From positions 1 through 38,052 of the forward strand of contig DAOWFP010000066.1 of assembly GCA_030637895.1 (NCBI GenBank): a stretch of 38,052 nucleotides of DNA. The letters run 5' to 3'. Below are positions 5,814 through 36,666 of this stretch, piece by piece. Below the pieces are notes generated by a model that was not told the DNA's origin, did no database searches, and saw only the letters and a list, made by a program, of their open reading frames with translations. A program made the translations under genes and the position numbers. The DNA comes from Bacteroidota bacterium. GTDB lineage: Bacteria > Bacteroidota > Bacteroidia > Bacteroidales > GCA-2748055. Numbering within the stretch: the first letter of the stretch is position 1; each line of letters starts with the position of its first letter.

Positions 5814-7295
5814 TTACCTGGTATTTTCTGAATTTCGTATCTCGTTCAACTTCTCCGATAGCTTAAACGCCATGCCTGGATTGGTCTGGATGAGATTTGT
5901 GGTCTCGCCCGGGTCTTTGCTCAAATCGTACAACTGGGCTTCAAAGTCCTTCAGGTTCTCCAGCCTGTTCTCCGGTAAACCCTCGGGAGGGGTATCATCA
6001 ATAAATTTCCAGTTTCCATCGTGCAATGCGTGCATCCCGTTGACATCGGCAGTTACCATGGAAGTTCTCGGATTGGGATTGCTTTTGTCCAGCAGCGCGG
6101 GCAGGAAACTATAGCTATCCGGAGCCACATTTTTTGATGCAGGAAGCGTTCCCTCGGTGATATCGCACACAGTGGCAAATATGTCCAGGAGATTTATCAT
6201 ATCATCTGAGACTGATCCCTCCTTCACCACCCCAGGCCAGGATACAATTAAGGGAACATTGCACCCTCCCTGGTAAATGGTATGTTTATCACCCCGAAGC
6301 TCACCGTTAATTTTCAGGCCATATTTCTGGGCCAGTCGTTCAGGAGCCTCGGGCCTGTGAGGCCCGGGAATATCACCCCCATTGTCGCTGGTAAAGATGA
6401 TCACTGTATTCTCCAGCAGATTCATATACTCCAGGGTTTCAATGATCCTGCCCACACTCATATCCAGATCCTGGATGAAATCGCCGTATGGGCCACAATC
6501 GCTCATTCCGCGCATCTGGGCCGAGGGAGTACTTGGATGGTGAACAGCTACGGGAGCAAAATAGAGGAAAAAAGGATCCTCACTGCTTTGCTCTTTGATC
6601 CAGTTTACAGATTTCTCTGTCAGCAACTCCATCACCTCCTCATTAATTCTCTGGGGTGCATCATAGCCAATGTAGCGATCTCCGTAATAGGACCGGGAAT
6701 AGGGCTGTATGCGATCACTCCTGATGCCGTAAATTTGATCGTTTTCAATATATACCCCCAATTTGTCATCATGATTCTGCGGTACTCCAAAATGATAATC
6801 AAAACCTAAATCCAGGGGCCCTGGAGATAGTTTCCCGGTATATGCCATGGGATCCTTATTGAGCCCGTGACCGTAGCCTAAATGCCATTTCCCAACAGCT
6901 GCGGTATGATAGCCTCTCTCCTTTAACCAATCAGCCACCGTGGTTCTTTCCGGATCCGGAAGCAGGTCACCCAGCGGGTGAGTTACCCCATATTTCAGGG
7001 GGGACCTCCAGGAGTATCGCCCGGTAAGAAATCCATAGCGGGTCGGGGTACAAATGGAGGCGGGTGTACTGGCATTGGTGAACCGCATACCACGGTCGGC
7101 TATGCGGTTTATGTGCGGGGTCCGAACCAGTTCCGGATCTGCACCGTAGGAATTTAAACTGCCATATCCAAAATCATCCGCCAGGATGAATATGATATTA
7201 GGCCTTTGTGGATTTTCCTGAGCCATGGCTGAGAATGCCATTCCGAATATGGCAATAAATACAATTATTCTTCCAATTGATTTTCCTTGTATCAT
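5814..7295 (-). CDS. Type I (S1) sulfatase
   Basis: Track ORF 5814-7430; preferred start is Met46 at 7295 (MIQGKSIGRIIVFIAIFGMAFSAMAQ signal peptide), avoiding overlap with the upstream GH92. RPNIIFILADDFGYG; formylglycine motif CTPTR at 7038-7052 followed by YGFLTGRYSWR; VGKWHLGYG. Confidence 0.92.
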   Translation of the reverse strand: MIQGKSIGRIIVFIAIFGMAFSAMAQENPQRPNIIFILADDFGYGSLNSYGADPELVRTPHINRIADRGMRFTNASTPASICTPTRYGFLTGRYSWRSPLKYGVTHPLGDLLPDPERTTVADWLKERGYHTAAVGKWHLGYGHGLNKDPMAYTGKLSPGPLDLGFDYHFGVPQNHDDKLGVYIENDQIYGIRSDRIQPYSRSYYGDRYIGYDAPQRINEEVMELLTEKSVNWIKEQSSEDPFFLYFAPVAVHHPSTPSAQMRGMSDCGPYGDFIQDLDMSVGRIIETLEYMNLLENTVIIFTSDNGGDIPGPHRPEAPERLAQKYGLKINGELRGDKHTIYQGGCNVPLIVSWPGVVKEGSVSDDMINLLDIFATVCDITEGTLPASKNVAPDSYSFLPALLDKSNPNPRTSMVTADVNGMHALHDGNWKFIDDTPPEGLPENRLENLKDFEAQLYDLSKDPGETTNLIQTNPGMAFKLSEKLNEIRNSENTR

Positions 7296-7408
7296 AGTCG
7301 CTCTATTTTTTATAAAATATTCCGATAACACAACAATCAAATACCACCTTTTGAAGTAGTGCTTTTCCATTTTTAGAGTAAACGATTTATTTAGAGGCAA
7401 GACGACAC

Positions 7409-9661
7409 TTATTGGACTCCAGCTCCCCACGATTTATTGGCTTTTGGCCCCATTTCAAATAGCAGTTTCCCACCCTTCATCACTTCTTCATGAGTGATCC
7501 ATGGTGCGTCCAGTGTTTCGCCATTTAGCTCAGCAGACTGGATATACTTGTTTTCAGCGGATACATTCCGGGCCTCTAATTCAAAAAGCTGTCCATTACC
7601 CAGGTCGACCGAGACATGCTCAAAGACAGGACTCCCAATGGTATAGACCGGATCCCCCGGTGTCACAGGGTAGAGCCCAATCTGGCTGAAGACAACAAAG
7701 GCTGACATGCCTCCTCCATCTTCATCACCAGGCACTCCCATTAAATCGTTGCGAAACCACTCATCCAGTAATTTCCTAATGGATTTTTGCGTCTTCCAGG
7801 GCTGACCCGCATAGTTGTACAGATAAGGCACATGTAGGGAGGGTTCATTGGCCATGGAGAACTGTCCCACGTTCCCGGTATGATCTGGTAACTGGGCATA
7901 AAAACTATATTTACTTTTCCCCAGGGGTTCTTTGAACATGGCATCCAGTTCCCTGACAAATGCTTCCATACCACCCATTAGCAGGATAAGGTCGGGAATA
8001 TTATGTTGTACATCCCATCGGTAGACCCAGGCGTTATTCTCTCCATAATAGCCCCTGGCTCCCATTCCCCCCGAGTACCTGTAGTCGAAGGGCTCAATGA
8101 AGTTCCCGTTCCAATCCTTTGGGTGAAAAAATTTGGTTTCCCCATTGAACAGCTTCCGGTAATTGAGTGAAGCCTCCATGAAGTGTGCCGCATCCTCATT
8201 CTTCCCCAGTTCCTCTGCTAATTGAGCAAGGCACCACTGGTCGTAGGAAGTCCCCAGAGTGACAGCCACCGGCTGGCGGCGCTCAAAGGAATGCACCTCA
8301 GGGATGGTCTCTTCATCACCTTCGTATAATGCAGGGATGTAGCCCTTTTCATGGTAAAATGCATCAAGTTTTCCGGCAGGCAATCCTGACCAGGGTGCCA
8401 GTGTTTTTTCCATAATAGCTCCCCTGGTAGCGTTGTAAGCTTTTTCCAGGTCGAAATTGCCCAGCCCTTTTCGATGGGCATCGATTACGGAAGCTACTCC
8501 ATGGTTGGAGTTCATGCGCCGGCTGTCTCCTGTTATCTCAGGAAAGGTGGGCCACCAGAAGCGATCCATCTGCTCAGACATCAATACAAAGGAGTGAAGA
8601 ATATCTTCCTCCTGTTCCGGATCAAGAAGAATACGGAGCGGATGATGGGCTCGGTAAGAATCCCAGATCCAGTCATCCGTGTAAAAGGGCCGTCCTTTAT
8701 CCTCATGGACCTTGCCGTCAAAAGCACTGTAATATCGTCCGTTTTCCGAAATGCAAACCGGCCTCTCAAAACAACGGTAAAGGGAGGTGTAGAATACTAT
8801 CTGGTCATCGGTCGAATTTCCTTTGATACGGACTTTACCCAGAGCCTCGTTCCAGATATTGCGTCCGGCAGTTTGAAGTTCGTCTATTGTTTTTCCAAGC
8901 ACTTCACGCTCCATGTTCTGCTTTGCCTGGGCTTCATCAATAAAGGATATGCCGTATTTCATCTGCAGTATCCTGGTTTCCTGGGGGTACCTTAATATCA
9001 GGCAGGCATCCTTTCCTTCAGCCATGATAGCTTCACTGGTCGTTCCGTCTTTCATTGACACAACATTGGCAGGAGCCTTTTCTGGAAGAAAGTAAAGGTA
9101 AACCCGCGTATCGTTCTCAATGACCTGGAATCCGCTGATGGCCTCGCCGTCCCATTTTAATTCTCCCCTTTTTGAGTTCAGGACCAGTTGGACCGGGGCA
9201 TCCTTTTCAAACTCAAGTTTATAAGCAGCAGATTGATGCGACAGCCCGAAATCTACCTGGACTTGGGCCTCATCAAGGTAGACTGAATAGGAATAGGGCG
9301 TGAGTTTTTCCTGGTCGTAACTGTAATCTATAACGGATTTTAGCTGGGTCTCTTCTCCCTGAAAAGGGCTTAGATTAAATGCCGAACTGCCCCTGTGGCT
9401 GGTCACTACCAGGGGTAGACCATGTAGGCTGACTCCGGTATAGTCTCTTCGCTCAGGGTAAACCCGCAGCATGCTGTTGGGAAGGTGTATGGTGGGGAAA
9501 GTAGGGACCAGCAGATGGCTGATGTTTCCCATGTAAGGGTTCACGTAATCAACCGCTTGTTTTTCTCCTCCTTTGTGCAATTCCGGTTGGGATTTACAGC
9601 CCATACAAAGAAGTAGGATCAGGCCTATGCTTGCGCTAAAATAAAATTTATGTTTCTTCAC
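7409..9661 (-). CDS. GH92 family alpha-mannosidase-like lipoprotein
   Basis: 750 aa. Lipobox-like LLLCMGCKS; VNPYMGNISHLLVPTFPTIHLPNSMLRVYP; MANEPSLHVPYLYNYAGQPWKTQ; GVPGDEDGGGMSAFVVFSQIGLYPV. Confidence 0.9.
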   Translation of the reverse strand: MKKHKFYFSASIGLILLLCMGCKSQPELHKGGEKQAVDYVNPYMGNISHLLVPTFPTIHLPNSMLRVYPERRDYTGVSLHGLPLVVTSHRGSSAFNLSPFQGEETQLKSVIDYSYDQEKLTPYSYSVYLDEAQVQVDFGLSHQSAAYKLEFEKDAPVQLVLNSKRGELKWDGEAISGFQVIENDTRVYLYFLPEKAPANVVSMKDGTTSEAIMAEGKDACLILRYPQETRILQMKYGISFIDEAQAKQNMEREVLGKTIDELQTAGRNIWNEALGKVRIKGNSTDDQIVFYTSLYRCFERPVCISENGRYYSAFDGKVHEDKGRPFYTDDWIWDSYRAHHPLRILLDPEQEEDILHSFVLMSEQMDRFWWPTFPEITGDSRRMNSNHGVASVIDAHRKGLGNFDLEKAYNATRGAIMEKTLAPWSGLPAGKLDAFYHEKGYIPALYEGDEETIPEVHSFERRQPVAVTLGTSYDQWCLAQLAEELGKNEDAAHFMEASLNYRKLFNGETKFFHPKDWNGNFIEPFDYRYSGGMGARGYYGENNAWVYRWDVQHNIPDLILLMGGMEAFVRELDAMFKEPLGKSKYSFYAQLPDHTGNVGQFSMANEPSLHVPYLYNYAGQPWKTQKSIRKLLDEWFRNDLMGVPGDEDGGGMSAFVVFSQIGLYPVTPGDPVYTIGSPVFEHVSVDLGNGQLFELEARNVSAENKYIQSAELNGETLDAPWITHEEVMKGGKLLFEMGPKANKSWGAGVQ

Positions 9662-9758: not shown

Positions 9759-9802
9759 AAGTAATAAAATATTAATATTTCTTTAATATCCCTTTCATTA
9801 CC
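9759..9802. promoter_or_regulatory. Candidate operator C: TTAA direct repeats, 11-bp phase
   Basis: aagtaataaaa|tattaatattt|ctttaatatcc|ctttcattacc; exact TTAA at 9772 and 9783, degenerate copies GTAA at 9761 and TTCA at 9794; upstream of GH92 at 9661. Confidence 0.45.
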
Positions 9803-9909: not shown

Positions 9910-12645
9910 TTACGAATTCAGCTTCAATGAGGTCGTAGAATAGAACTTATATTTACCTGAACCAATTTCTATTTCTGCCTGGCCATTCTCAAAACCACGC
10001 AATTGAATTTCCTTGCTATCCAGTATGGAAATACCGCTCTCAGTAATATCAGTTTTGGAGCTTGCCGGAATAAAAACAGTGGCTGATGTATTTTCCGGAA
10101 TATCAACTTCAAGGATAAAGCTTTCTTCGGTTTTCTCCCAGCTAACTTCAATCTTACCATAGGGAGAAATATGATAACCTAAGGCCCACTGCAGCGAATC
10201 AATTTGGGCGGGTTTAATGATAATATGCTTATAACCCGGGGCTTCCGTGTCGATCTGAATGCCTAATAAACCGCGTTGAAACCAGCCACCAATCCCATTC
10301 AGGCAACCATGAACCCGTGAATTGACCGGCTCCCAGTACTCGGGCCAGGTAATCTCACCCCTTGCAATAAACTCCCCATAGCTGGGATAGGTGGTTTGAT
10401 TCATGAGTGTGTGCAAGAGCTCATGCTTCCCTGTTTCGGTCAGGTATTTGGTCAGATAGTAGGTACCGTGAATTCCGGTATCAAAATGGCCATTCTGGTT
10501 TTTATTTATTTCTTCCGCCAACCTTTTCTCTACTTCAGGAATATCTTTCTCAGGCACTATTCCGGCCATCAGTGGCATCACCAGGTGGGTTTGTCTGGTA
10601 TCGATGTAGGTGTAGTTTATAGAATCATAATAGAAGTGGTTAATCGCATCGCTTAATTCCTGTGCTTTGGTCCGGTAAGCAAGGGCATTATCTTCCATTT
10701 TCAGAATATGAGCGATGTTGGCCGCAATTTTCAATACATATACATAGTAACAGTTGTTAAACAAGCTGGCTTCAGCAGTAAAACTTTCCTCATTTCCATG
10801 TGGATTTGCCCAATCCCCAAGGAAAAGCCATCGCTTACCATCCATGTACTCCCAATCGCCTGCGGATACCACATTCAGCAATCCATTTTCATTTATATGT
10901 TCTTCCATATACACGAGCCATTTTTGAGCAGCAAGAAAGGTGCTTTCCAGTATCCGTGTATTGCCATAGCTCAGATATACTTCCCAGGGCAGGGTGAGAA
11001 TAAAACCACTCCATGCAGGACCTCCTCCGCCCCCCAGAGTAGGTGCAGTATGGTTTATGCGCCCGCTTGCATCCTGAATATCCACCCAGTCCTGTGCCCA
11101 TTTTGTGAAGAAGGGGTGTGAAGCATAGGCATCGTTTGCTATATCCAGGCTGCCATGACCGTCGCCTCCGTATCCCAGCCTTTCACGGTGAGGGCAATCC
11201 ACAGACATACCTCCGGTGGATAGACTCTCGTAGGTATAGCAGGTGTTATCGTAAATCTGGTTCAGCAACTCATTTGAACAGTGAAAATCACCAAAGCGTT
11301 CACGGTCATTTGTAACCTGGTATCCAACTATATCATGTAGCTCCGGCTGGTAATCAATACCAGCAATGCTAATATATTCAACCTGGTGATAGGAAAACCT
11401 GTTTCTAAACTTCCCCTCTCCATCATCACCAATTACCAGCACGTTTGTCTGGTTAAATTCCACCGCTCTGTCCGGATAGGAGGAAGCTGAAATGGAGATA
11501 CGCTGTCCCGGCCTTCCCTTCAATGTGGCCTCAATCCAACCTGTGTAGATGGAATCCATGGTAAATTGATACTGTCGCTCTCCCGTTTTCTTCAAGGATA
11601 TAGCCGACCGTTTCTTTACCATCCTGTTGGGTTCCAGAAAATCAGAACTTAGCTTCAATCCACATGCTACCACATCAACCCTGGCCCACTGGCTCTCCTC
11701 AAAATGGTCTAGTGCCCATTCCACATCATGATCCGCATCCACAACCAGGTCTCCACCAAAATCGCTGTTTTGCCATCTACCCAGGTGGTAGGTATTGCTC
11801 GCCGAATAGCTCCACGATTCTCCTGTGGCGATCCAATGCTCCGGACTAATTCGAAATTGAGCCCTGCATAAAGGACTTTTTTCTACATTGAAATCTACTT
11901 TGGGATTAGCATCCGAAAAATCTGCCCATCCTGACGACAACCAGATAACAATGTTGTTCTTGCCTTCCTTCAAGTGTGGAGCAATATCATAACTTGAATA
12001 CAGGACCCTGTTTCTAAGATCTGAAACCGAGGGGCTAAGCACAGCATCGCTTACCTTCTTGCCATTCACATATAGTTCGTGAAATCCAAGGGATGCGACA
12101 AAGGCAGGGGCAAAAAGGGGTGTTCTATCCAGATCAAAATCATATTTAAAGTAGGGACAATTGCTTGAATCAATGTCCGGACCATAAATCCATTCTCCAA
12201 GCCACTCATTTTCATCCAGGATTCCCGTCTCGAAAGATGCCCATTTGCTGAATTTACTTTTGCTTCCCTTATTATCTTCAATTTGAATTCTCCAATAGTA
12301 TTTCCTTGCCGATTGGAGGGGCTCGCCTTCATACCTGATATTTACAGAATTCCCGGAAGGTATTTTACCTGAATTCCAAATGGGCCAGCTAGCATCCTCA
12401 GGTATTCTTTCAGATTCATATACCAGTATTCTGTACGAGGACTGAGCAACATTCCGTCTGCCAGGAGCATCAATTTCCCAGCTCAGGTAAGGACGTGAAT
12501 GTTCAACACCCCTGGGATTGGATAAAAACTCACACTTAAGCTTCCTTGCGATCAGGTCATAGGACAGATCTTTCTTATCCTGACAGGCCGTAAGGAGGAT
12601 AAGAGTCCCTATCATCAAAACAAGATTTACTGACCTATTTATCAT
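9910..12645 (-). CDS. GH78 alpha-L-rhamnosidase
   Basis: 911 aa. Lipobox-like ILLTACQ; SYRILVYES...ARKYYWRIQIED N-domain; MSVDCPHRERLGYGGDGHGSLDIA catalytic motif; GEITWPEYWEPVNSRVHGCLNGIGGWFQRGLLGI. Confidence 0.92.
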   Translation of the reverse strand: MINRSVNLVLMIGTLILLTACQDKKDLSYDLIARKLKCEFLSNPRGVEHSRPYLSWEIDAPGRRNVAQSSYRILVYESERIPEDASWPIWNSGKIPSGNSVNIRYEGEPLQSARKYYWRIQIEDNKGSKSKFSKWASFETGILDENEWLGEWIYGPDIDSSNCPYFKYDFDLDRTPLFAPAFVASLGFHELYVNGKKVSDAVLSPSVSDLRNRVLYSSYDIAPHLKEGKNNIVIWLSSGWADFSDANPKVDFNVEKSPLCRAQFRISPEHWIATGESWSYSASNTYHLGRWQNSDFGGDLVVDADHDVEWALDHFEESQWARVDVVACGLKLSSDFLEPNRMVKKRSAISLKKTGERQYQFTMDSIYTGWIEATLKGRPGQRISISASSYPDRAVEFNQTNVLVIGDDGEGKFRNRFSYHQVEYISIAGIDYQPELHDIVGYQVTNDRERFGDFHCSNELLNQIYDNTCYTYESLSTGGMSVDCPHRERLGYGGDGHGSLDIANDAYASHPFFTKWAQDWVDIQDASGRINHTAPTLGGGGGPAWSGFILTLPWEVYLSYGNTRILESTFLAAQKWLVYMEEHINENGLLNVVSAGDWEYMDGKRWLFLGDWANPHGNEESFTAEASLFNNCYYVYVLKIAANIAHILKMEDNALAYRTKAQELSDAINHFYYDSINYTYIDTRQTHLVMPLMAGIVPEKDIPEVEKRLAEEINKNQNGHFDTGIHGTYYLTKYLTETGKHELLHTLMNQTTYPSYGEFIARGEITWPEYWEPVNSRVHGCLNGIGGWFQRGLLGIQIDTEAPGYKHIIIKPAQIDSLQWALGYHISPYGKIEVSWEKTEESFILEVDIPENTSATVFIPASSKTDITESGISILDSKEIQLRGFENGQAEIEIGSGKYKFYSTTSLKLNS

Positions 12646-12778
12646 GCCTGTGAATTAGATTTACCGGACATTTACAAGAAACTCCATGGAAGATAGAAAC
12701 AGATAGTTTTTTGGGTTAATTCTCATCCTCTGTTAAGCCTGTTGGCTATCCTAATATAGGATCCCGGGAATAGCAAAA

Positions 12779-12811
12779 CATTAAAGTCGCATTAATAAAA
12801 GATTAAAGCTT
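12779..12811. promoter_or_regulatory. Candidate operator B: three TTAA direct repeats, exact 11-bp phase
   Basis: cattaaagtcg|cattaataaaa|gattaaagctt; TTAA at 12781, 12792, 12803; upstream of GH78. Confidence 0.5.
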
Positions 12812-12821
12812 CAATAATAGC

Positions 12822-15239: not shown

Positions 15240-16328
15240 TTAAGGTTCTAACAACTTTGATAAGTCCACCGAATCGTAGGGTTTTTCTCCGAATCCCGCA
15301 TAATACTCCAGGAGAATCCTTTCGCCTGTTTCATCTATTTTAATCACAGCATATCCGGGTAAATCGGTCTGTTTAAAATAGCTTACATGCTTCGCCTCTT
15401 CAGCCAACATGGCCTTTCTAGCCTCCAGAGTTTCGGGCTGCCACCCGCTCATGTTTTCCGCAAGCGATGGGCCATATTCCGTAATCACTTTTGCAGGCTC
15501 CTGGTAATCTCTTTCTTTGATCACACTGATTACCATAAGTTGTACCACTGGCCCGTAGGGAGTTTCCCGCCGCACAAGCGAATAACGATGCAGGTGGCCG
15601 CATAAGACTATCGCTTTGTGACTGGCAATGACTTTAAGAAGCTCATCCCGCTTTTCAGTATCCCGCCTCAGGGTGTGCCAGCACCTTTCTGTAACCGGGA
15701 TTACAGGTTCATGGATAGCCACGAATTTATACTTCGCATCCGACCCTGAAAGTTCCTGCTCAAGGAAAGAGATCATATCTGTCTCTTTATCCCAGGGATC
15801 CAAACAGGTGATCTGAACATTGTTGTAGCAGTAGGAATAACTGGCACGCTTGATATCCGGATTTCCGGTCTGTTTTCTGATCATGGGAACATAGTGTTCC
15901 TGAAAGGCTTCATGTGCTCCGGGCCCTGTTATATCGTGATTTCCCTTGGTCAGGATCCAGGGTGCGGGCATTCTGGCAGCTTCAATGGCTTCCATGGTAT
16001 TGGATGCCATCTGATGGGCTTTTACATCATTACCGGCAAGACCTTCCGACAGATCTCCCAGTTGAATGATCGCTTTTACTGGTGGATCGGTATGTTCAGC
16101 TCTCTTTTTGAGAACCGACATAAAATCGGTCCAGTTCTCCCTGGTGTAAACGGTGTATTCTTCCGTCACCTGGCGCAAGTCACCCGGCTTCTGCTTAAGC
16201 CAGTCCATATCATGATCATCCAGAAGATCATAATGCAAATCCCCAAGCACGATGAAACTGCTGCTCTGGTCCTCTGAGCAATTACTTAGTAAAACCAGCA
16301 GTGAAGCCAGCAACAAAAATCTTTTCAT
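15240..16328 (-). CDS. Calcineurin-like metallophosphoesterase, lipoprotein
   Basis: Start re-assigned to Met6 of the 16343 ORF (MKRFLLLASLLVLLSNCSEDQ, lipobox). VLGDLHYDLLDDHD, QLGDLSEG, TKGNHDITG, AIHEP, CGHLHRYS. Confidence 0.88.
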   Translation of the reverse strand: MKRFLLLASLLVLLSNCSEDQSSSFIVLGDLHYDLLDDHDMDWLKQKPGDLRQVTEEYTVYTRENWTDFMSVLKKRAEHTDPPVKAIIQLGDLSEGLAGNDVKAHQMASNTMEAIEAARMPAPWILTKGNHDITGPGAHEAFQEHYVPMIRKQTGNPDIKRASYSYCYNNVQITCLDPWDKETDMISFLEQELSGSDAKYKFVAIHEPVIPVTERCWHTLRRDTEKRDELLKVIASHKAIVLCGHLHRYSLVRRETPYGPVVQLMVISVIKERDYQEPAKVITEYGPSLAENMSGWQPETLEARKAMLAEEAKHVSYFKQTDLPGYAVIKIDETGERILLEYYAGFGEKPYDSVDLSKLLEP

Positions 16329-16345
16329 TACAATAAGATTCAACT

Positions 16346-17437
16346 TTACCTGCTTAATTTAACCGGCATCCCGGTTTCGCTGCTTTGACGTGCAGCCTCC
16401 AGGATCTCTACTACAGTAAGGTTTATTTCCAAAGAGGATAAATCGGTAGGAGCAACCTTGATATCTCCTTTGACCGCTGCCGCAAAAAAGGCAAAAGGAT
16501 CCGTAAATGGAGCCGCTGATACCGGCACTTTCTTAAGTTCCTCACCTGTTTTTTCGTCCAGGCGGAACCTGATGGTTTCTGCATCATCTATAAATACATA
16601 TCCGGAATTTCCATAGATATGCATGTCTTTCCGGTTGAAGGGCCAGTTCCATGAGGCATGAATAACTCCCTCCATGTCCGGATAGGAAAGAACGATGGTA
16701 GCATCATCATCCACATGGGGATAGACATCTGGCTTATACTGCTTTAATTCAGCATATACAGTGAGGGGCTTTTCCCCTTTGAGCATCCAGGTGATCAGGT
16801 CAGCGCCATAACATCCAAAGTCGATCACAGCCCCACCTCCATTTAACACAGGATCGGTCAGCCACTCTAAAAATTCAGGATTCACACCAATTTCTTTGGG
16901 ACCTTTATGGCCGTCGTAGACAATAACCTTTCTTAATTCCCCGAGCTCTCCATTTCTTACCATGTCATATCCCACATAATTAGAAGGATACCAGGTGGTT
17001 TCATAGTTGGTCAAAACCTGAATTCCATGCTCCTCTGAAAGCTTTTTCATGATCCCTGCATGTTCAGTAGATACGGCCAGGGGTTTTTCAACCATCACAT
17101 CAATGCCTCGTTTGGCACAGGCTTGCACCACCTCTAAATGATCGAAGATTGAAGTAAAAGTGATAACCCCATCAGGCCTGGTCTTCTCCAGCATCTCTTC
17201 CAGTGACTCATAAATCAGATTCTTGTCAAGGTGATAAGCCTCAGCATATCGATCTGAAAGATCGGTATTGCTTTCTGCGATTCCCACAATTTGAATATCT
17301 TCCCGATCCAGGTTTCTAAGTAAAGGGATCACATGCGAATGAGACAATCCCGCAACCCCAATTCTTACAGGCTCCTGGCCGGATATGGGATTCATTAGAA
17401 CTCCCATGCACAGAATAAAAAGAGTGGTAATTCTCAT
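16346..17437 (-). CDS. Gfo/Idh/MocA family oxidoreductase
   Basis: 363 aa. RIGVAGLSHSHVIPLL nucleotide-binding start, VMVEKPLAVSTEHA (EKP motif), GGAVIDFGCYGADLITWML. Confidence 0.9.
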   Translation of the reverse strand: MRITTLFILCMGVLMNPISGQEPVRIGVAGLSHSHVIPLLRNLDREDIQIVGIAESNTDLSDRYAEAYHLDKNLIYESLEEMLEKTRPDGVITFTSIFDHLEVVQACAKRGIDVMVEKPLAVSTEHAGIMKKLSEEHGIQVLTNYETTWYPSNYVGYDMVRNGELGELRKVIVYDGHKGPKEIGVNPEFLEWLTDPVLNGGGAVIDFGCYGADLITWMLKGEKPLTVYAELKQYKPDVYPHVDDDATIVLSYPDMEGVIHASWNWPFNRKDMHIYGNSGYVFIDDAETIRFRLDEKTGEELKKVPVSAAPFTDPFAFFAAAVKGDIKVAPTDLSSLEINLTVVEILEAARQSSETGMPVKLSR

Positions 17438-17465
17438 AGCAAACCGTAAAGTTTGGCATTAGGTA

Positions 17466-18569
17466 TCAGGTACTAATCTGCTGCAGTGCATAGGCATAAG
17501 CACCCAGCGCTATAGACTCACTGGCTCCCCTTGTGCTGGTGGCGATGGCCAGCCTGGGTACCGGATCATAGGATATGGTTTTGTCAGTTCCCGGAATAGG
17601 AAGGGTTTTGGAATAATCCCTGAAAAAATCCTTCCGCTCCTCTTCATTGTCCAGGTTAAATACCTTCTGTACCAATCTGGGTAGTTCATCTGCATTGGAG
17701 GGACGAAACTTGTAGTTCAACTCCTCCATCACGGCTGGCATATAAAGATCCCTTGCGCCGGTAATCCCTCCACCGATCACAGCGATTCCATCAGAAAGAG
17801 TCAGGATATTGGCTACCGTATCACCCAGGGCACGTCCTGTGGCTTCATATGCTTTCAAAGCTGCTTCTCTGTTCCCCTCCTTCTCTCCTCTGGCTATCTC
17901 ATATATATCCTTGGGTTCCAGTTCGTTGGGATATTTAATACCAGCCTCTTCGGCGTAAAACCTTTGAACAGACCGAATGCTCACCGCATCTTCAGCATTG
18001 ATGGTAGGGTGATGCCTGTTGCTGAAAAGCCACACTTCTGCAGCAGTTACATTATCACCGGTGATCAGCTGACCGTTCGAAACAAAGCCACCACCAAAAC
18101 CGGTACCCAGTGTAAAGCCAAAGAGGTTCTTGTATCTTTTTGGACTTCCTGAGGCCTCAAGTTGGCTGTTGATCTCGGGTAAAATCCCTCCAAGAGCCTC
18201 TCCATAGGCAAAGAGGTCGCCATCATTGTTTATATATACCGGCAATCCAAACTCCTCTTCCAGGATGCTTTTCAGCGGCACACCTCCCTGAAAAGCAGGA
18301 AGATTGTTGGAATTATCTATGATCCCGTTGGCATAGTCTGCCGGCCCCGGAAAGGCAAAACTAATTGCCACGGGGATCTCCTCTATGGATTGAATAACCT
18401 CACTAAAGCCCTCCTTCATGGTGGCCAGGCATCTTTCCAGGTGATCTGCATTGGAATCCTTTCTGATCCCGCCTGTGATGGCTTTGCCGCTTTTGAATGC
18501 ATTAAATACGAAATTAGTTCCACCTGCATCCAGGGTCAACACCACCCGTTCATCATTATAAATATTCAT
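17466..18569 (-). CDS. ROK-family sugar kinase/regulator-like protein
   Basis: 367 aa. LTLDAGGTNFVF, VAISFAFPGPADYANGII, VYINNDGDLFAYGEALGG, FTLGTGFGGGFVSNGQL. Confidence 0.85.
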   Translation of the reverse strand: MNIYNDERVVLTLDAGGTNFVFNAFKSGKAITGGIRKDSNADHLERCLATMKEGFSEVIQSIEEIPVAISFAFPGPADYANGIIDNSNNLPAFQGGVPLKSILEEEFGLPVYINNDGDLFAYGEALGGILPEINSQLEASGSPKRYKNLFGFTLGTGFGGGFVSNGQLITGDNVTAAEVWLFSNRHHPTINAEDAVSIRSVQRFYAEEAGIKYPNELEPKDIYEIARGEKEGNREAALKAYEATGRALGDTVANILTLSDGIAVIGGGITGARDLYMPAVMEELNYKFRPSNADELPRLVQKVFNLDNEEERKDFFRDYSKTLPIPGTDKTISYDPVPRLAIATSTRGASESIALGAYAYALQQIST

Positions 18570-18572
18570 CTC

Positions 18573-19730
18573 TTATGCTTTAGAGGTTCGGGTCGCGATG
18601 TACAGAATATATATCATGCAGAGACCGGGGACAATAAATCCGGCCATCAGACCTGCCATGTCTGCAACCACACCAAACAGGATGGGTACAAAGGCTCCTC
18701 CAATAATAGCTGTTACCATAAGGCCCGAAATTTCATTGCTTCTGTCAGGGTAGGCATCCACAGTAATGGAAAATATGAGTGGGAAAATATTTGCAAAACC
18801 CAGCCCGATGATGGCGATAAATACAAAGGCCAGCACCTCACTTGAGGCAATAAAGAGACCAGCAATACCTAAAATGGAAAGGATGCTGGTAATAATCAGG
18901 AACCTCTTAGGTGATAACCAGTTCAGAATCACACCGCCTAAAAACCTTCCGGTCATCAGGGACAAAAAGAAAAACAGGGTGCCAAACAATCCCTTTTCTT
19001 TGATATCGAAGTCAAATTTCGCTTCTAGAAAGTTAGGGAGTTTCGCACTCATGCTCACCTCGGAGCCCACGTAGAGAAAAATGCCAATGACCATGAGCAG
19101 TATATAGGGATTCTTCAACAGTCCTAAACATGATTTCAGTGTGGCCGGCTTTTCAGGAGTGGCCTTTTCTTCGATGCGAGTGACTAACAATATAACTACA
19201 ACCAGTAGCATCACCCCTCCATAGATCGGAAACAGTAATTTCCAGTCCAATCCCCAATAACGTGCAGCCAGAATGGGGATCAGTGAACCCGACAGGGAGC
19301 CAATGGCCTTCACAAACTGTCCGAAGCTTAGGTTCCTGGAATATTTCCCTTCTGGCGAAACATCCCGCATTATTGGATTCCCTGCTACCTGAAGCATTGT
19401 GGCTCCGGTACCCAGAAAAAGAAGACCTCCCAGAATTAGTATAAAGGATTCATAATTTCCAATGATGGGCAGGATCATTCCCACCAGTGCTGCAAACAAG
19501 CCCATCATCAGCACATGCTTCCTTCCCTTCCGGTCCTGGTACAAACCCATTGGAATGGAGAGTAAGCCAAACATAATGAAGGCCATGAAGGTTACCAGCC
19601 CGGCCTGAAAATTATTCAGGGCGAAATCTGATTGCAGTTGGCTGGTCAGGGGTCCGGATACATCTCCAAAACCCATCACCAGGAAAGCCAGAAATATGGG
19701 CGTCGATTTAAACATGTTGTTCTTTGTCAT
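18573..19730 (-). CDS. MFS sugar transporter (FucP-like)
   Basis: 385 aa, multiple hydrophobic segments, MGLYQDRKGRKHVLMMG MFS loop motif; 3 bp upstream of the ROK gene. Confidence 0.85.
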   Translation of the reverse strand: MTKNNMFKSTPIFLAFLVMGFGDVSGPLTSQLQSDFALNNFQAGLVTFMAFIMFGLLSIPMGLYQDRKGRKHVLMMGLFAALVGMILPIIGNYESFILILGGLLFLGTGATMLQVAGNPIMRDVSPEGKYSRNLSFGQFVKAIGSLSGSLIPILAARYWGLDWKLLFPIYGGVMLLVVVILLVTRIEEKATPEKPATLKSCLGLLKNPYILLMVIGIFLYVGSEVSMSAKLPNFLEAKFDFDIKEKGLFGTLFFFLSLMTGRFLGGVILNWLSPKRFLIITSILSILGIAGLFIASSEVLAFVFIAIIGLGFANIFPLIFSITVDAYPDRSNEISGLMVTAIIGGAFVPILFGVVADMAGLMAGFIVPGLCMIYILYIATRTSKA

Positions 19731-19794
19731 AGCTCAAATTGGTCGGTTCGAAAAAAGAATTTTTGTTTAATATAGCATCATTGCTGAAAAAAAA

Positions 19795-19816
19795 CATTAA
19801 TTAATTCTTAAAAAGA
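19795..19816. promoter_or_regulatory. Candidate operator A: TTAA direct repeats, 11-bp phase
   Basis: cattaattaat|tcttaaaaaga; TTAA at 19797 and 19808 (an extra TTAA at 19801). Lies between the divergent MFS and regulator genes. Confidence 0.45.
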
Positions 19817-19932: not shown

Positions 19933-22458
19933 GTGACCTATAATACAAAAACAAAGAATAGCTTATTGAGTCGGATATTATGGCTATTCCTACTCGCCTT
20001 CATGCACTTATGCACCATTGTTGAAGGACAGTATTATGGAATGAAGTTTGCCGGTATTGAACATTCTCTTGATCAGCGATCAGGTCTTAATCTTACTCCG
20101 GAGCATTCTCTTAATTTCAAGGGCAATCTGGATCTGGAGTTTTACCTTCGTTTTGAAGCGGATCATGAATCCTACTTTGGTTACATCTTTCGACTCATTC
20201 TCGGAGATAAGAACATCGACTTAATTCATGGTGTCGTCCCCGGTAATCCCAATAACTTCGAATTGATCCTCGATGGGAAAACCAGTGATATCGCTTTTAA
20301 GGTTCCTCTTGATGATCTAAGAAAAGGCTGGTTAAAAATCAGGCTGGAGCTAAATTTCGAAGAGGGTCAGATTACCTTCTATTACAATGACATAGCTCTG
20401 GTGGAAGATCTAGACGCCTATGATCCTAGAAGTGGTTTTCGATTGATGTTTGGGGCCAACTCATTTGGTAACTTTTCATCCACAGATGTTCCAAATATGA
20501 TTATCCGGGACGTGCAGGTGAAAAGTGGGAAAAACACCAGGATAATCTGGCCCCTGGATGAAACTGGTGGTATTATCGCCCATTCCTTTCCCGGGGGAAA
20601 TAATGGAATTGCAGTCAATCCGGAATGGTTATTGAAATACCATAATACCTGGGACCAGAGGTTGAGCAAGCAGATATCCGGAGAAGTAAAGACAGCCTTT
20701 GATTCCAAAAACGATGATCTTTATTTACTCACTACGGATTCTCTCCATATATATAATATAGCGGATGATTCCATAAGAAGCTTAGCTCTGGGATTAGCTT
20801 ACCCCCTTGAAAGTTCCACCCAAATTATCTTTGACACCTCCTCCAATAATCTATTGATGTACTCCCTGGATTATAATTTTATAGCCACTTTTGATTGGGA
20901 GACAAGGATGTGGGACACATATGATACGGGTCCAAGAGATATTACAGTCTACTGGCACCACAGCCGTTTTATTGATCAGGATGGATCGCTTATTGCCTTC
21001 GGTGGCTATGGGCAGTATACCTTTAAAAATTCGGTATTTCTCTGGAATCCCGAAAAGAGTCGTTTCGATAGCATTAGTTACCAGGGAGACTTTCTTCCCA
21101 GGTATCTTGCAGGGGCAGGCTATAATCCCGGCGATAGTCTTTTCTATTTAATAGGTGGCTACGGTAGTGAAAGCGGAAAACAATCTGAGAGTCCGGACTA
21201 CTATTATGAGTTGATCCGTTTCTCCCCGGACGACAGAGCTTTTTCCAATGTGCATAAGTTCGAGGATACAGAGGCCGGATTCTGCTTTGCTAATTCCATT
21301 GTTTTTGATGATGCCAACAATCTTTATGCGCTTTATTTTCCCAAATATCAATTTGACAACCAGCTCCAGTTAATCAAGGTCTCACCTGAGAATCCTGAAA
21401 TTTTTGAGCTGGGGAACGCCATTGATTTCAGTTTTCTGGATATAAACTCAAGTGCTGATCTTTATTACAGCCAGAGATCCGGTTCCCTCCTGGCATTATC
21501 ATCCTACACTTCAGATGGCACCACTCAGGTCTCTATTAATACCATTGCATTTCCACCGCAAAGTTTTTCGACAAAAACTGTAGCAGAGCAAAAACGAAAC
21601 CCTGGTATTGTTAAATACTTTTTGATTGCAGTCCTGGTGTTTGTAGCCAGCTACCTGATTAGTCTTCTAAGGAAAAAGGGGAAGTCTTCAAAAAGAAAAA
21701 CTATTTCTACCCACAGGGAAGGAGCTCCAACAACCAGGGCGAACTCCATCATCCTATTCGGGGGATTCCAGGTAATAGACAAAGCCGGGAACGATATCAC
21801 AGGTCAGTTTACCCCCCTGCCGAAGAAATTATTTCTGTTCATTCTTCTGCACTCCTTGCGAAACGATAAAGGGGTCTCATCCAACACCCTTTATGAAACC
21901 TTCTGGTTTGAAAAAGCAGTGGAAAGTGCCAGAAATAACAGGGCTGTGAATATCGTAAAATTGAAATCCCTGCTCGACAGTCTTGATTCTGCTGCCATCT
22001 CAAAAGCTACCGGTTACTGGAAATTCAATTTTGACCCTGCTGCGATATCTATAGACTATTTTGAATACCTGCAACTTGTCAGCCAGACAAAGGAAACAAC
22101 AAGGGAGCAAGTTGTTCGTCTTCTGGCTATTATTGAAAACAATCCCTTTTTAAACAATACAAATGCTGATTGGCTCGACCCCTTCAAATCTGAAGTATCC
22201 AATGCCATCATTGACACCTTATTCAGGTATATCCATAACGCTGATGATGATCCAGAGTTTCTGCTGCACCTGACCAAATGCATTTTTCAATGTGATATCG
22301 TTAGTGAAGAAGCACTTAAGATCCAGTTGCGCTTGCTCATCAAGCAAGGCAAGCACAGCCTGGCACAGAAAGCTTACTCGATTTTTCTTAAGGAGTACGA
22401 AACGCTTTATAATGAAGCCTACGGTTTAAGCTTTAAACAGCTTATTGGCGAGGAGTAG
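19933..22458 (+). CDS. Membrane-spanning SARP/OmpR-type one-component regulator with LamG-like and Kelch-like ectodomain
   Basis: 841 aa from GTG at 19933 (in-frame stop TAA at 19900-19902 upstream; no earlier ATG). Signal-like SRILWLFLLAFMHLCTIVEG; LamG-like residues ~35-200; Kelch-like IAFGGYGQYTFKNSVFLWNPEKSRF and FYLIGGYGSESGK; TM IVKYFLIAVLVFVASYLISLL; cytoplasmic ILFGGFQVIDKAGNDITGQFTPLPKKLFLFILLHSLRNDKGVSSNTLYETFWFEKAVESARNNRAVNIVKLKSLL resembling a SARP winged helix, then a helical BTAD-like tail. Confidence 0.8.
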   Translation: MTYNTKTKNSLLSRILWLFLLAFMHLCTIVEGQYYGMKFAGIEHSLDQRSGLNLTPEHSLNFKGNLDLEFYLRFEADHESYFGYIFRLILGDKNIDLIHGVVPGNPNNFELILDGKTSDIAFKVPLDDLRKGWLKIRLELNFEEGQITFYYNDIALVEDLDAYDPRSGFRLMFGANSFGNFSSTDVPNMIIRDVQVKSGKNTRIIWPLDETGGIIAHSFPGGNNGIAVNPEWLLKYHNTWDQRLSKQISGEVKTAFDSKNDDLYLLTTDSLHIYNIADDSIRSLALGLAYPLESSTQIIFDTSSNNLLMYSLDYNFIATFDWETRMWDTYDTGPRDITVYWHHSRFIDQDGSLIAFGGYGQYTFKNSVFLWNPEKSRFDSISYQGDFLPRYLAGAGYNPGDSLFYLIGGYGSESGKQSESPDYYYELIRFSPDDRAFSNVHKFEDTEAGFCFANSIVFDDANNLYALYFPKYQFDNQLQLIKVSPENPEIFELGNAIDFSFLDINSSADLYYSQRSGSLLALSSYTSDGTTQVSINTIAFPPQSFSTKTVAEQKRNPGIVKYFLIAVLVFVASYLISLLRKKGKSSKRKTISTHREGAPTTRANSIILFGGFQVIDKAGNDITGQFTPLPKKLFLFILLHSLRNDKGVSSNTLYETFWFEKAVESARNNRAVNIVKLKSLLDSLDSAAISKATGYWKFNFDPAAISIDYFEYLQLVSQTKETTREQVVRLLAIIENNPFLNNTNADWLDPFKSEVSNAIIDTLFRYIHNADDDPEFLLHLTKCIFQCDIVSEEALKIQLRLLIKQGKHSLAQKAYSIFLKEYETLYNEAYGLSFKQLIGEE

Positions 22459-22467
22459 TAACACCCT

Positions 22468-22501
22468 AAAAAAAGAGAGTGTACCTTTTGATACACCCTC
22501 T
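22468..22501 (-). terminator. Rho-independent-like terminator for the minus-strand GH92
   Basis: Minus strand: agagggtgta-tcaaaagg-tacactctct followed by tttttta; 10-bp stem with one mismatch and a T tract. Located ~130 bp beyond the GH92 stop, between convergent genes. Confidence 0.7.
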
Positions 22502-22591
22502 AAACCTGAAATACTTCAACTAACTAAATTACTACTAAAAAACTACTTGCGTTATTCTGGGTGCTAATATATAGCTGGATAAATAAAAAAT

Positions 22592-22624
22592 TATTAATAA
22601 TACCTTAATACAGTAATTAATTTC
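22592..22624. promoter_or_regulatory. Candidate site D: TTAA direct repeats, 11-bp phase
   Basis: tattaataata|ccttaatacag|taattaatttc; TTAA at 22594 and 22605 (11 bp), third copy off by one at 22617. Lies 3' of GH92. Confidence 0.3.
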
Positions 22625-22628
22625 GTTT

Positions 22629-24926
22629 TTATTCCCAGAACACTCTTTTTTCTGGTCCCATTATGAATGTAATGGTGGCACCTGCCTCAATATCAGCGTG
22701 ATTAATATATGGTTCCTCTAGCTTAACTCCATTTAGTTGAACCTCCTGTACATATGGATTGGCTTCTGATCTGTTCCTGGCGATAACACTAAAAATCTTC
22801 CCATTGGCCATATCAATTTCCACCCTGTCAAAGGAGGGGCGCCCTATAGAGTAACGAACATCACCCGGACATACAGGATAAAAGCCAATGGAATTCAGAA
22901 TGTACCAGGCAGACATCTGTCCGCAATCCTCATTCCCCACAATTCCATCAGGTTTATCTGTGTAGAACTGCTCCAGGATCTCTGAGACAAGCTCCTGTGT
23001 TCTCCAGGGCTGATCCACGTAGTTATAAAGGTAGGCGATATGGTGACTGGGCTCATTTCCATGTGCATACTGTCCAATCAGGCCTGTAATATCCACACTT
23101 TTCTCTTCCCCAAGAACTTCTGAGGTAATGCTAAAGAGCGAATCAAGTTTAATGATAAATGACTCTGGCCCTCCCATCAGATCAATCAGCCCGTAAACAT
23201 CATGCGGTACATACCAGGTCCATTGCCATGCATTTCCCTCAACATAGGGTGTTGCCCAATGGGCCGAGTACCTTGGATGAAAGGGCTCCAACCAGCTTCC
23301 ATCCAGATTCTTACCACGCATAAAGCCAAGCTCTGGATCAAAATAGGTGGAGTAGCGCTTTGACTTTGCGAAGAACTCCTCGGCTAAATCCTCTTCACCC
23401 ATTTCTTTTGCCATGCTTGCTATGGCCCAGTAGTTATAAGCGAATTCCAATGCCTTTGATACAGAAGAATGCTCCAGATCGCATGGAATGAAGCCATATT
23501 TTTCCTCAAATAACTTCGCTTCCGGCATCAGGTTCCCCCAGGCCTCCTCAGAGGGATAGTTGATCTCTTTAATGGTGTCATAAGCCACTGAATGAACGAT
23601 TGCTTCAAGTGCCTTCTCCGCATCAAAGTTGCGATGGCCCTTCATATAGGCATCAACGATTACCGAAACCGCATGTGATCCGATCATGGTTCCTGTATAG
23701 TTGGAAGCCAATCCCCACATGGGTAATATTCCGCCTTCATCGTATTTCCGCAGGAGAGCCCTGATTAGCTCCTGGTTGTAATCCTGGTTCAGTATGGTAA
23801 ACAAGGGATGAAGCGCACGGTGGGTATCCCACAAGGAAAATACTGTATAATTGGGGCTGCTGGAGTAATGAATCTGCTGATCCATGCCCCGGTAGGTCCC
23901 ATCCACATCAGAATAGATCCCCGGGTATATGGAACTATGGTACAGGGCAGTATAAAAGGTCCTTTTCTCACTCAGGTCATTTGTCTCTATCCGTACTTTT
24001 GACAGCTCCTTCTCCCAGATCCTCTCCGCCTGGCTGCTGATGTAATCGAAATCCCATCCATTTAACTCCTGGTTCAGGTTCTTTGCCGATCCTTCATAAC
24101 TAACTGCACTAAGTCCAATCTTTGCAATAACCTGCTCCCCTTCTTCCGTATGAAATTTTAATTTAAGCTTCGCATTCTTACCTGATACACTTGTACTGCC
24201 CTCCTGCAGCTCATTGTCCAGGTATAACTCGGCATCAAAGGGTTTTGAAAATTTCGCAGTAAAATAGACATAATGATTCTTCGCCCACCCGGAAGTCACT
24301 TTCAGGCCCTGGATCTCTTGCTTATTAAGTATTTTAATCTCGTGAAGAGGGTTTTCATGACCATGAATGGTATGTGTTAGATCTATCAGAATTCCAGCAT
24401 TCTCTGCTTCAGGAAAAGTATAGCGGTGCATTCCCGTATGGTAAGTCGAGCTTAATTCAACTCCTACATTATAATCTGTTAGCTCAACGCTGTAGTAGCC
24501 AGGTCGGGCACTTTCCTTCTCTTTGTTAAATCTTGATCTGTATCCTGAATCGATCTGATCTTCAGAACCTGCATCCAGGGAAACTTCCCCGGTATAAGGC
24601 ATAAATAAAATATCTCCATAGTCTCCAATTCCGGTTCCACTCAGATGGGTATGGCTGAAACCAAGGATGGAAGAGTCTGAGTAGTGATAACCGGCGCAGG
24701 CATCCCAGCCAAGGGTACGTGTATCAGGACTAAGTTGTACCATACCAAAGGGAAGTGTGGCACCGGGAAATGTATGTCCATGGAAATCAGTACCGATAAA
24801 AGGGTCTACATAAGCAACGAATTCTGCACGATTCCGGCTTTTTATTATGGGCCCGCCACAGGCAAAAACGATAAGCGCAAATAGCGTGATGAGGAAAAGT
24901 GGACTTTTGAATCCTATCGTTGTCAT
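22629..24926 (-). CDS. GH92 alpha-mannosidase (canonical motif set)
   Basis: 765 aa. YVDPFIGTDFHGHTFPGATLPFGMVQLSPDT, GWDACAGYHYSDSSILGFSHTHLSGTG, YAHGNEPSHHIAYLYNY, IVGNEDCGQMSAWYILNSIGFYPVCPG. Confidence 0.96.
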   Translation of the reverse strand: MTTIGFKSPLFLITLFALIVFACGGPIIKSRNRAEFVAYVDPFIGTDFHGHTFPGATLPFGMVQLSPDTRTLGWDACAGYHYSDSSILGFSHTHLSGTGIGDYGDILFMPYTGEVSLDAGSEDQIDSGYRSRFNKEKESARPGYYSVELTDYNVGVELSSTYHTGMHRYTFPEAENAGILIDLTHTIHGHENPLHEIKILNKQEIQGLKVTSGWAKNHYVYFTAKFSKPFDAELYLDNELQEGSTSVSGKNAKLKLKFHTEEGEQVIAKIGLSAVSYEGSAKNLNQELNGWDFDYISSQAERIWEKELSKVRIETNDLSEKRTFYTALYHSSIYPGIYSDVDGTYRGMDQQIHYSSSPNYTVFSLWDTHRALHPLFTILNQDYNQELIRALLRKYDEGGILPMWGLASNYTGTMIGSHAVSVIVDAYMKGHRNFDAEKALEAIVHSVAYDTIKEINYPSEEAWGNLMPEAKLFEEKYGFIPCDLEHSSVSKALEFAYNYWAIASMAKEMGEEDLAEEFFAKSKRYSTYFDPELGFMRGKNLDGSWLEPFHPRYSAHWATPYVEGNAWQWTWYVPHDVYGLIDLMGGPESFIIKLDSLFSITSEVLGEEKSVDITGLIGQYAHGNEPSHHIAYLYNYVDQPWRTQELVSEILEQFYTDKPDGIVGNEDCGQMSAWYILNSIGFYPVCPGDVRYSIGRPSFDRVEIDMANGKIFSVIARNRSEANPYVQEVQLNGVKLEEPYINHADIEAGATITFIMGPEKRVFWE

Positions 24927-24965: not shown

Positions 24966-24998
24966 ACTTAATTTTCGATTAACAAATGATTAATTTAC
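24966..24998. promoter_or_regulatory. Candidate operator E: three TTAA direct repeats, exact 11-bp phase
   Basis: acttaattttc|gattaacaaat|gattaatttac; TTAA at 24968, 24979, 24990; 42 bp upstream of the GH92 start, overlapping the SGNH stop codon. Confidence 0.5.
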
Positions 24999-35271: not shown

Positions 35272-36666
35272 TCAATCCTCAACGATCAGCTTCTTAATCC
35301 GCTCAATCTGCTTCTGCTTGTTTACCTCGCGCAGACTGCGTGCAGTTTTGGTGAAGTAGGTGTGAGCAGAGATAAATTTCAGCTGCAGCTTATTCCAGTC
35401 ATTCAGGGTCCCGATTTTATCCTGTTCGCTCAGCTCCTTATAAAGAGTGTTGGAGACCGGGATCATATCACTTCTGCCCAGGTAATCGAGATCAGCATCA
35501 CAGATAATCTCCTGGTAAATATCACTGGGTTGTGGGGGCAGTTTTGTGGCCATGATGATGTTGCAGATTTTTTCAAGCTGCTCTTCCGTGTATCCGTATG
35601 CGGGAAGTAACTTTTTTACCAGTTCGGTGCCATGAAACTCATGTTCATCATAGGAAATGGTATGCCCCACATCATGAAACAGGGCGGCAGTCTTCAGCAG
35701 CAGGATCCCTTCATCATCGAGCCCCTCGGCCCAACCAATCAGTTCCACTTCAGTAACCACATCCACTGTATGCTTCACATTGTGATAATACAGATAGCGG
35801 GGCAATTCTTTCTCAAGCCTGTCAAGTATCAGTTCCTGGATATCGGTAAATTGTATCAATTTGAATTTAGTGTTGAACATGGCATTGGGCATTACTCCCC
35901 GTTCCCGCATGGAGAACTCCGGTCTGATTCCCTGCACCACAAACATCTCCAGATCACCCTTGTATTTCACTGGCATCCTACCATAATAGTCACAAACAAA
36001 AAACTCTTTGATCAGCTCGTAAGTCATTACCGAGATCAGAATTTTCCCGCTCTCACTCACCCCCTGCATACGATGTGCAATATTGACCGTATCACCTTTA
36101 ATGTCATAGCTAATCTTTCTCTTTCCAGATATAGTAGCTGTGACGGGACCGGTATGAATTCCCAGACTCAGGTTCCAGTAACGCTTGCCATCAATGCGCC
36201 TGAGCTGGTTCAGAAATATATTCATCTCCAGGGCAGCCATTATCACATCAATGGGATTCGTGATATTTTTTTCCGGAATCCCCCCGGCAGCCATATAGGT
36301 ATCTCCGATTGTCTTGATCTTATGTATCTTATACTTTTTCAGAATGCGGTCAAACTCAATAAGAACTTCATCCAGCTGGTCCATCACCACCTCGGAAGAA
36401 TCATTATCGGTGAGATGCTTAAATCCTGTGATATAAGCAAAGAGAACCGTAGCCATCTTATACTTCTTGATCCGCTCAACTGGTTTTGGCGCACTGCCCT
36501 CCTTTGCTTCAGCCCGGGACTCTTTCAGCTCTTGTTTAATCATATCCGCCTGCTCTGACAGCTCGGTATGCGATTTCTGCAGCTTTTCATTCTTATCATA
36601 CAGCTCCTGATTCTTCCTGACCAGTTTCTGGATCCGCTTTAACAGTTCATCCTGTTTTTGTCCCAT
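35272..36666 (-). CDS. Coiled coil - class III nucleotidyl cyclase domain - HD domain fusion protein
   Basis: 464 aa. N-terminal coiled coil (MGQKQDELLKRIQKLVRKNQELYDKNEKLQK); cyclase-like MATVLFAYITGFKHL, IKTIGDTYMAAGG, LGIHTGPVTATISGKRKISYDIKGDTVNIAHRMQ; HD TAALFHDVGHTISYDEHEFHG and CDADLDYLG. Confidence 0.88.
   Translation of the reverse strand: MGQKQDELLKRIQKLVRKNQELYDKNEKLQKSHTELSEQADMIKQELKESRAEAKEGSAPKPVERIKKYKMATVLFAYITGFKHLTDNDSSEVVMDQLDEVLIEFDRILKKYKIHKIKTIGDTYMAAGGIPEKNITNPIDVIMAALEMNIFLNQLRRIDGKRYWNLSLGIHTGPVTATISGKRKISYDIKGDTVNIAHRMQGVSESGKILISVMTYELIKEFFVCDYYGRMPVKYKGDLEMFVVQGIRPEFSMRERGVMPNAMFNTKFKLIQFTDIQELILDRLEKELPRYLYYHNVKHTVDVVTEVELIGWAEGLDDEGILLLKTAALFHDVGHTISYDEHEFHGTELVKKLLPAYGYTEEQLEKICNIIMATKLPPQPSDIYQEIICDADLDYLGRSDMIPVSNTLYKELSEQDKIGTLNDWNKLQLKFISAHTYFTKTARSLREVNKQKQIERIKKLIVED

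Follow-up and report, generated by a model that had tools for sequence, protein, structure and literature searches.

The SARP module is known from antibiotic control in actinobacteria. Winged helices are also found in the membrane-tethered regulators ToxR and CadC, where they lie N-terminal of the transmembrane (TM) helix. For Bacteroidota, reviews and comparative work name SusR-like proteins, HTCS and ECF/anti-sigma systems as regulators of PULs. The DNA-binding domain of SusR was reported to resemble no known factor (PMC3878776). SARP promoters carry direct repeats 11 or 22 bp apart that overlap the -35 element (PMC10936776; PMC10972967); repeats are 11 bp apart and the 3' repeat lies 8 bp from the -10 element (PMC10936776). 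The Bacteroidota counterpart of this promoter box is the -7 consensus TAnnTTTG (PMC7366714).

The window analysed here is a stretch of 38,052 nucleotides, one contig of a draft Bacteroidota genome (58.75% complete) in which the regulator gene is present as a single copy. With a probability of about 80%, this gene encodes an inner-membrane-spanning one-component activator, whose periplasmic beta domain and kelch propeller are connected by one TM helix to a cytoplasmic SARP module acting on phased repeats (Table 1).

Table 1. The regulator gene, its domains, and the predicted operators and target genes in the window
Feature	Position	Strand	Basis
Regulator gene, proposed membrane-spanning SARP-type activator	19933..22458	+	841-aa ORF, GTG start; homologues, predicted structure, Foldseek
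Signal sequence, residues 1-32, conserved Gln at 33	19933..20028	+	hydropathy; conservation
N-terminal all-beta domain, residues 36-236	20038..20640	+	AF2; without LamG profile match
Kelch beta-propeller, residues 240-540	20650..21552	+	Pfam, PDB profile search, Foldseek
Single TM helix, residues 557-579, then basic low-conservation linker	21601..21669	+	hydropathy, AF2, conservation
OmpR/SARP-type winged helix, residues 603-701	21739..22035	+	AF2, Foldseek, conservation
All-helical BTAD-like domain, residues 702-830	22036..22422	+	AF2, Foldseek; weak Pfam BTAD in relatives
Predicted operator upstream of GH92a, 23.5 bits, three TTAA repeats at 11-bp spacing, -7 box at canonical offset	24966..24994	-	matrix
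Predicted operator upstream of GH92b, 16.8 bits, -7 box TATATTG at canonical offset	9759..9787	-	matrix
Predicted operator upstream of GH78, 16.5/14.1 bits, run of 11-bp repeats, -7 box TATATTAG at canonical offset	12768..12818	-	matrix
Weak two-repeat operator-like element facing the MFS/ROK operon, -7 box at canonical offset	19768..19811	-	conserved in congener L032; PWM alone -0.8
Predicted operator with -7 box in convergent gap, 19.7 bits, antisense to regulator end	22566..22609	-	matrix
GH92 alpha-mannosidase a, predicted target	22629..24926	-	Pfam; site
GH92 alpha-mannosidase b, predicted target	7409..9661	-	Pfam; site
GH78 alpha-L-rhamnosidase, predicted target	9910..12645	-	Pfam; site
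Divergent operon, possible target: MFS sugar transporter, ROK kinase, Gfo/Idh/MocA oxidoreductase, metallophosphoesterase	15240..19730	-	Pfam; operator-like element
Sulfatase adjoining GH92b	5814..7430	-	Pfam

Hydropathy and homologues confirmed the open reading frame, signal peptide and single TM helix that an earlier note had read from the DNA. The only membrane-length hydrophobic segments are residues 9-33 and 556-582, a basic stretch lies C-terminal of the TM helix, and 73 of 74 relatives carry a membrane helix at the matching position. Full-length homologues share 23-59% identity with the regulator, and AF2 on 74 sequences gave a mean pLDDT of 88. NCBIfam returned no match for the regulator, nor was there one in viral contigs scanned with the single regulator protein.

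The ectodomain matches PDB kelch proteins both by profile search and by fold (Foldseek), and Pfam detected kelch in the regulator itself (PF24681 at 9.5e-7, PF13418 above the cut-off) as well as in 21/21 relatives, so that the propeller claimed by the earlier note is borne out. Residues ~36-236 were predicted by AF2 with high confidence as all-beta. The PDB profile search with this N-terminal domain yielded chance matches only, none below E 0.27. The profile comparison proposed in the earlier note gave a mixed picture: kelch was found and BTAD weakly so (Pfam, 4/23 relatives, best 0.0054), while the region read there as LamG-like (residues 36-236) matched no LamG profile in Pfam, and Trans_reg_C was matched at no E-value, either in the regulator or in its relatives. 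Kelch propellers are often protein-binding, and the PDB matches of this one are mainly of the KEAP1/KLHL type; the ectodomain might accordingly sense a protein partner or a general envelope cue. We regard this as rather doubtful in view of the tight and specific linkage to glycan-degrading genes described below. Furthermore, the Foldseek matches of the ectodomain include the propeller sensor of BT4663, a heparin-sensing HTCS, albeit with poor global superposition. A glycan would thus be the probable ligand.

The cytoplasmic part is the best-conserved region of the regulator family. Modelled alone, it reached a pLDDT of 94.7 in AF2 and displayed the OmpR-type order of a winged helix (beta-beta, helices 628-644, 650-657 and 663-681, hairpin 687-700), directly followed by an all-helical domain (708-826). 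Since Trans_reg_C is unmatched in Pfam, the winged helix rests on structure prediction; likewise, a PDB sequence search with this domain gave chance matches only and was uninformative, so that structure comparison was needed. By Foldseek against the PDB, matches one to six were all AfsR (8hvr, 8k60) or EmbR (2fez, 2ff4), with TM 0.65-0.68 and E 2.8e-6 to 1.5e-4 over 249 columns spanning the whole cytoplasmic domain, after which there was a sharp drop. The SARP/OmpR-like winged helix with a BTAD-like tail, which the earlier note had read from the translation, is therefore supported by predicted structure over the full length of the cytoplasmic domain. The recognition helix (663-681) carries the near-invariant motif AxNNxxVNIxKLK, with A666, N668, N669, V672, N673 and I674 invariant. 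These models support the assignment of the predicted cytoplasmic domain as a SARP module.

Compared with the SARP family (AfsR and EmbR of Streptomyces and Mycobacterium), the regulator shares the winged helix plus BTAD fold over the full cytoplasmic domain and, here at the DNA level only, direct repeats at 11-bp spacing, the 3' one lying ~8 bp from the promoter box. In contrast to classical SARPs, which are cytosolic and actinobacterial, it spans the membrane, has a periplasmic propeller and bears its winged helix C-terminal of the TM helix. It also differs in its occurrence in Bacteroidota, in the predicted control of glycan genes instead of antibiotics or arabinan, and in a sequence too far for Pfam Trans_reg_C. 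Because of the signal sequence, the TM helix and the Bacteroidota relatives, we consider it a SARP-like module in a new setting and not a classical SARP. The precedent of ToxR and CadC, invoked earlier, holds for a membrane-tethered OmpR-type winged helix, but the comparison is loose, as the polarity is opposite and the BTAD present here is absent there. With HTCS the regulator has in common a periplasmic beta-propeller sensor linked to PUL control, whereas kinase, receiver and AraC domains are lacking (Pfam, AF2). An ECF sigma factor with a FecR-type anti-sigma factor was not found by Pfam in the regulator or the window genes, in line with the earlier statement that neither HTCS nor ECF/anti-sigma systems are seen here. 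Closest in design are the SusR-like regulators, inner-membrane one-component proteins with a periplasmic sensor and a cytoplasmic DNA-binding domain that are encoded next to PUL genes (PMC3878776). The winged helix lies C-terminal of the TM helix, as in SusR. SusR motifs, however, are repeats 67 or 77 bp apart (PMC3878776), whereas the predicted operator here consists of 11-bp tandem repeats. The cytoplasmic profile of the regulator is uncommon in an even draw of the phylum (7/198 genomes), which hints that the two DNA-binding domains may differ.

Full-length relatives are spread across Bacteroidota. A whole-genome search found them, mostly at full length and with up to four per genome, in 16/198 related genomes. 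The scan of named genomes, for which a narrower alignment was used as the full alignment A1 was too diverse, revealed 215 loci encoding relatives; the best 80 of these belong to Pedobacter, Sphingobacterium, Mucilaginibacter, Dyadobacter, Chitinophagaceae, Cyclobacterium and Bacteroidales MAGs. Two adjoining copies occur in tandem at loci L126 and L129, and the MAG sequence of the homologue at L031 (453-2930) contains an interrupting stop or frameshift.

Neighbouring genes within 10 kb were clustered and the cluster representatives identified with Pfam. This survey, proposed by the earlier note, disclosed a strong tie of the homologues to carbohydrate genes: among the best 80 of the 215 loci, GH92 alpha-mannosidases occur at 53, GH99-like genes at 48, SusC at 34, SusD types at up to 32 and GH3 at 22, all of them lower bounds because many loci end at contig ends. 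Neither of the two outcomes that the earlier note named as refuting its reading, a cytoplasmic part other than a winged helix or homologues unconnected with carbohydrate genes, was thus obtained. The GH92 background is ~0.03 per 20 kb (227 GH92 in ~165 Mb, 25 genomes), and at the 25 loci with known genome totals GH92 was observed in 17 against 0.69 expected. The GH99-like cluster comprises proteins of ~426 aa (e.g. L072:12759-14036), two scanned members of which fall below the Pfam GH99 cut-off; it is probably an unclassified glycosidase family tied to GH92. Beside 20 distant paralogues, SusC/SusD adjoin about half, sulfatases others and GH92 three. The family as a whole therefore seems to regulate PULs in general, with the alpha-mannoside link applying to the clade of the window regulator.

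The gaps adjoining regulator genes contain TTAA repeats one helical turn apart, with pairs peaking at 11 and 22 bp. Triplets at step 11 occurred in 54/134 regulator-adjacent gaps compared to 7/225 distal gaps, and any other step gave 0-1. The derived operator matrix reads TTAATc.ATTATTAAT..TTTaTTAAgt and is followed at a fixed distance by a -7-type box, whose central TT is present in 96% and 93% of 116 sites. Every one of the 122 sites scoring over 18 bits lies between genes, despite intergenic DNA making up only 10% of the DNA scanned; 53 of them are the training set, itself taken from intergenic DNA. An oriented start lies within 450 bp for 118/122 sites, the commonest genes being GH92, SusC, GH3, DUF5703 and GH99-like. 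Chance occurrence in AT-rich DNA is ruled out by the restriction to step 11, by shuffles and by the fixed -7 box. Judged from the DNA, the TTAA direct repeats at 11-bp steps are probably the operator of the regulator, and the predicted geometry of operator and -7 box closely matches that of published SARP promoters, a match that was not built in.

With a matrix trained without the window, 4/13 gaps of the window exceeded 16 bits, compared to a mean of 0.002 in shuffles; the best score in coding DNA was -0.2. The sites before GH92a, GH92b and GH78 have the correct orientation and carry T, A and TT at the canonical -7 offsets in all three. The divergent sugar transporter operon, to which the earlier note had drawn attention, is faced by an operator-like two-repeat element with a correctly placed -7 box and conserved in a congener, which would be missed by the matrix alone. 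In view of the stronger predicted sites at GH92 and GH78, we rejected the idea that the regulator acts on the divergent transporter alone. A matrix scan of the regulator's own promoter detected no strong site. In the divergent cluster, an 802-aa ORF (12822-15230, minus strand) has no Pfam or NCBIfam match, and elsewhere in the window one protein has an adenylate/guanylate cyclase catalytic domain and, after it, an HD domain (35272-36666, minus strand).

Another strong site lies in the convergent gap without an obvious target gene. There (22465-22609, minus strand), a hairpin with a T-run lies ~100 nt downstream of the antisense operator and -7 box, and operator, -7 box and hairpin are all kept in two congeners (L030 about 2530-2705 and L032 about 4450-4610, both minus strand). 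Rfam gave no credible match for the transcript. Either a small RNA belonging to this regulon could be transcribed from the element, or the element could be left over from an arrangement co-directional with GH92, as seen in L033/L034.

For whole-genome scans a profile including the -7 box (R1) was used with a cut-off of E<=0.01. It was cleaner than a degenerate IUPAC pattern allowing 2 mismatches, which was rejected as too noisy, with similar counts in control genomes and for the reversed pattern. The GH92a site (E 3.8e-4) tops the ranking for the whole genome; the sites that come next, on contig C127, precede a further GH92, a gene for a PQQ-type propeller and a sulfatase/GH99-like operon. This second cluster (L150) encodes GH92, sulfatases, GH99-like and GH120-like proteins and an enolase-superfamily protein beside the predicted operator sites; its PQQ-type propeller protein shows weak similarity to the lambda-carrageenase propeller. 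Sites passing the cut-off were found in 7/8 related genomes with the regulator and in 0/10 without; two of the seven (G022, G026) had supplied training sites, and without both the values are 5/6 and 0/10. In G023, diverged regulators are present and a strong site is absent.

Direct repeats of 11 bp are also used by OmpR/PhoB-type regulators; at afsS, PhoP and AfsR have a site in common (PMC10972967). The TTAA repeats, which are spread through the regulon and not confined to the vicinity of the regulator, might thus belong to another winged-helix protein, e.g. an OmpR/PhoB-type response regulator or a soluble SARP, that the membrane protein modulates or to which it is unrelated. This is quite unlikely, as the strong sites track the regulator gene across related genomes, the repeats concentrate in regulator-adjacent gaps, the lag-11 TTAA signal recurs beside distant paralogues and the recognition helix of the membrane regulator is near-invariant. 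Less probable still is that the regulator represses its targets. The direction of regulation is unreadable from sequence, but the repeats lie over the expected -33 region, upstream of the -7 box, and leave the start site uncovered, as in activating SARP promoters, and a BTAD domain is present.

For an activator of this kind, the periplasmic part would meet a cue which, judging by the predicted targets only, is most likely an alpha-mannoside-containing, often sulfated oligosaccharide. The SARP modules, presumably dimerising, would then assemble side by side on the tandem TTAA-type repeats at 11-bp steps. As these lie at a fixed distance just upstream of the target -7 box, BTAD and winged helix could recruit RNA polymerase bound to the primary sigma factor of Bacteroidota. 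In the window, the two GH92 genes, the GH78 gene and probably the MFS/ROK operon would be targets, and on the other contig the GH92, propeller gene and sulfatase/GH99-like operon. Alternatively, regulated intramembrane proteolysis might free the SARP domain as a soluble activator: the linker between TM and winged helix (residues 580-602) is basic, poorly conserved and modelled with pLDDT <50, and sites on distant contigs would have to be within reach of a tethered activator. No site-2-protease partner, however, was seen among the annotated cluster representatives of the surveyed neighbours, and SusR is described as a membrane protein binding promoters (PMC3878776). Release is accordingly the more doubtful option, and DNA binding by the tethered protein is preferred.

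A SARP version in PUL control, of which the earlier note was not aware, was not encountered in our literature search either: no SARP or kelch regulator in Bacteroidota PULs was found, subscription papers being mostly outside this search. On balance we lean towards the view that PULs have one more class of regulators in addition to SusR, HTCS and ECF/anti-sigma. Its members would be one-component SARP activators that span the membrane, read periplasmic glycan with a kelch propeller and recruit the Bacteroidota RNA polymerase via phased 11-bp repeats. The class would be widespread in mainly environmental Bacteroidota and, in the clade studied here, serve chiefly the breakdown of alpha-mannosides, often sulfated. 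The switching of most polysaccharide loci in non-gut Bacteroidota is poorly known, because the regulator classes were defined in Bacteroides. The family presented here places a SARP module in a transmembrane receptor and has a readable operator; regulons may therefore be predicted from sequence, and these predictions would be testable in cultured Pedobacter, Mucilaginibacter and Dyadobacter.
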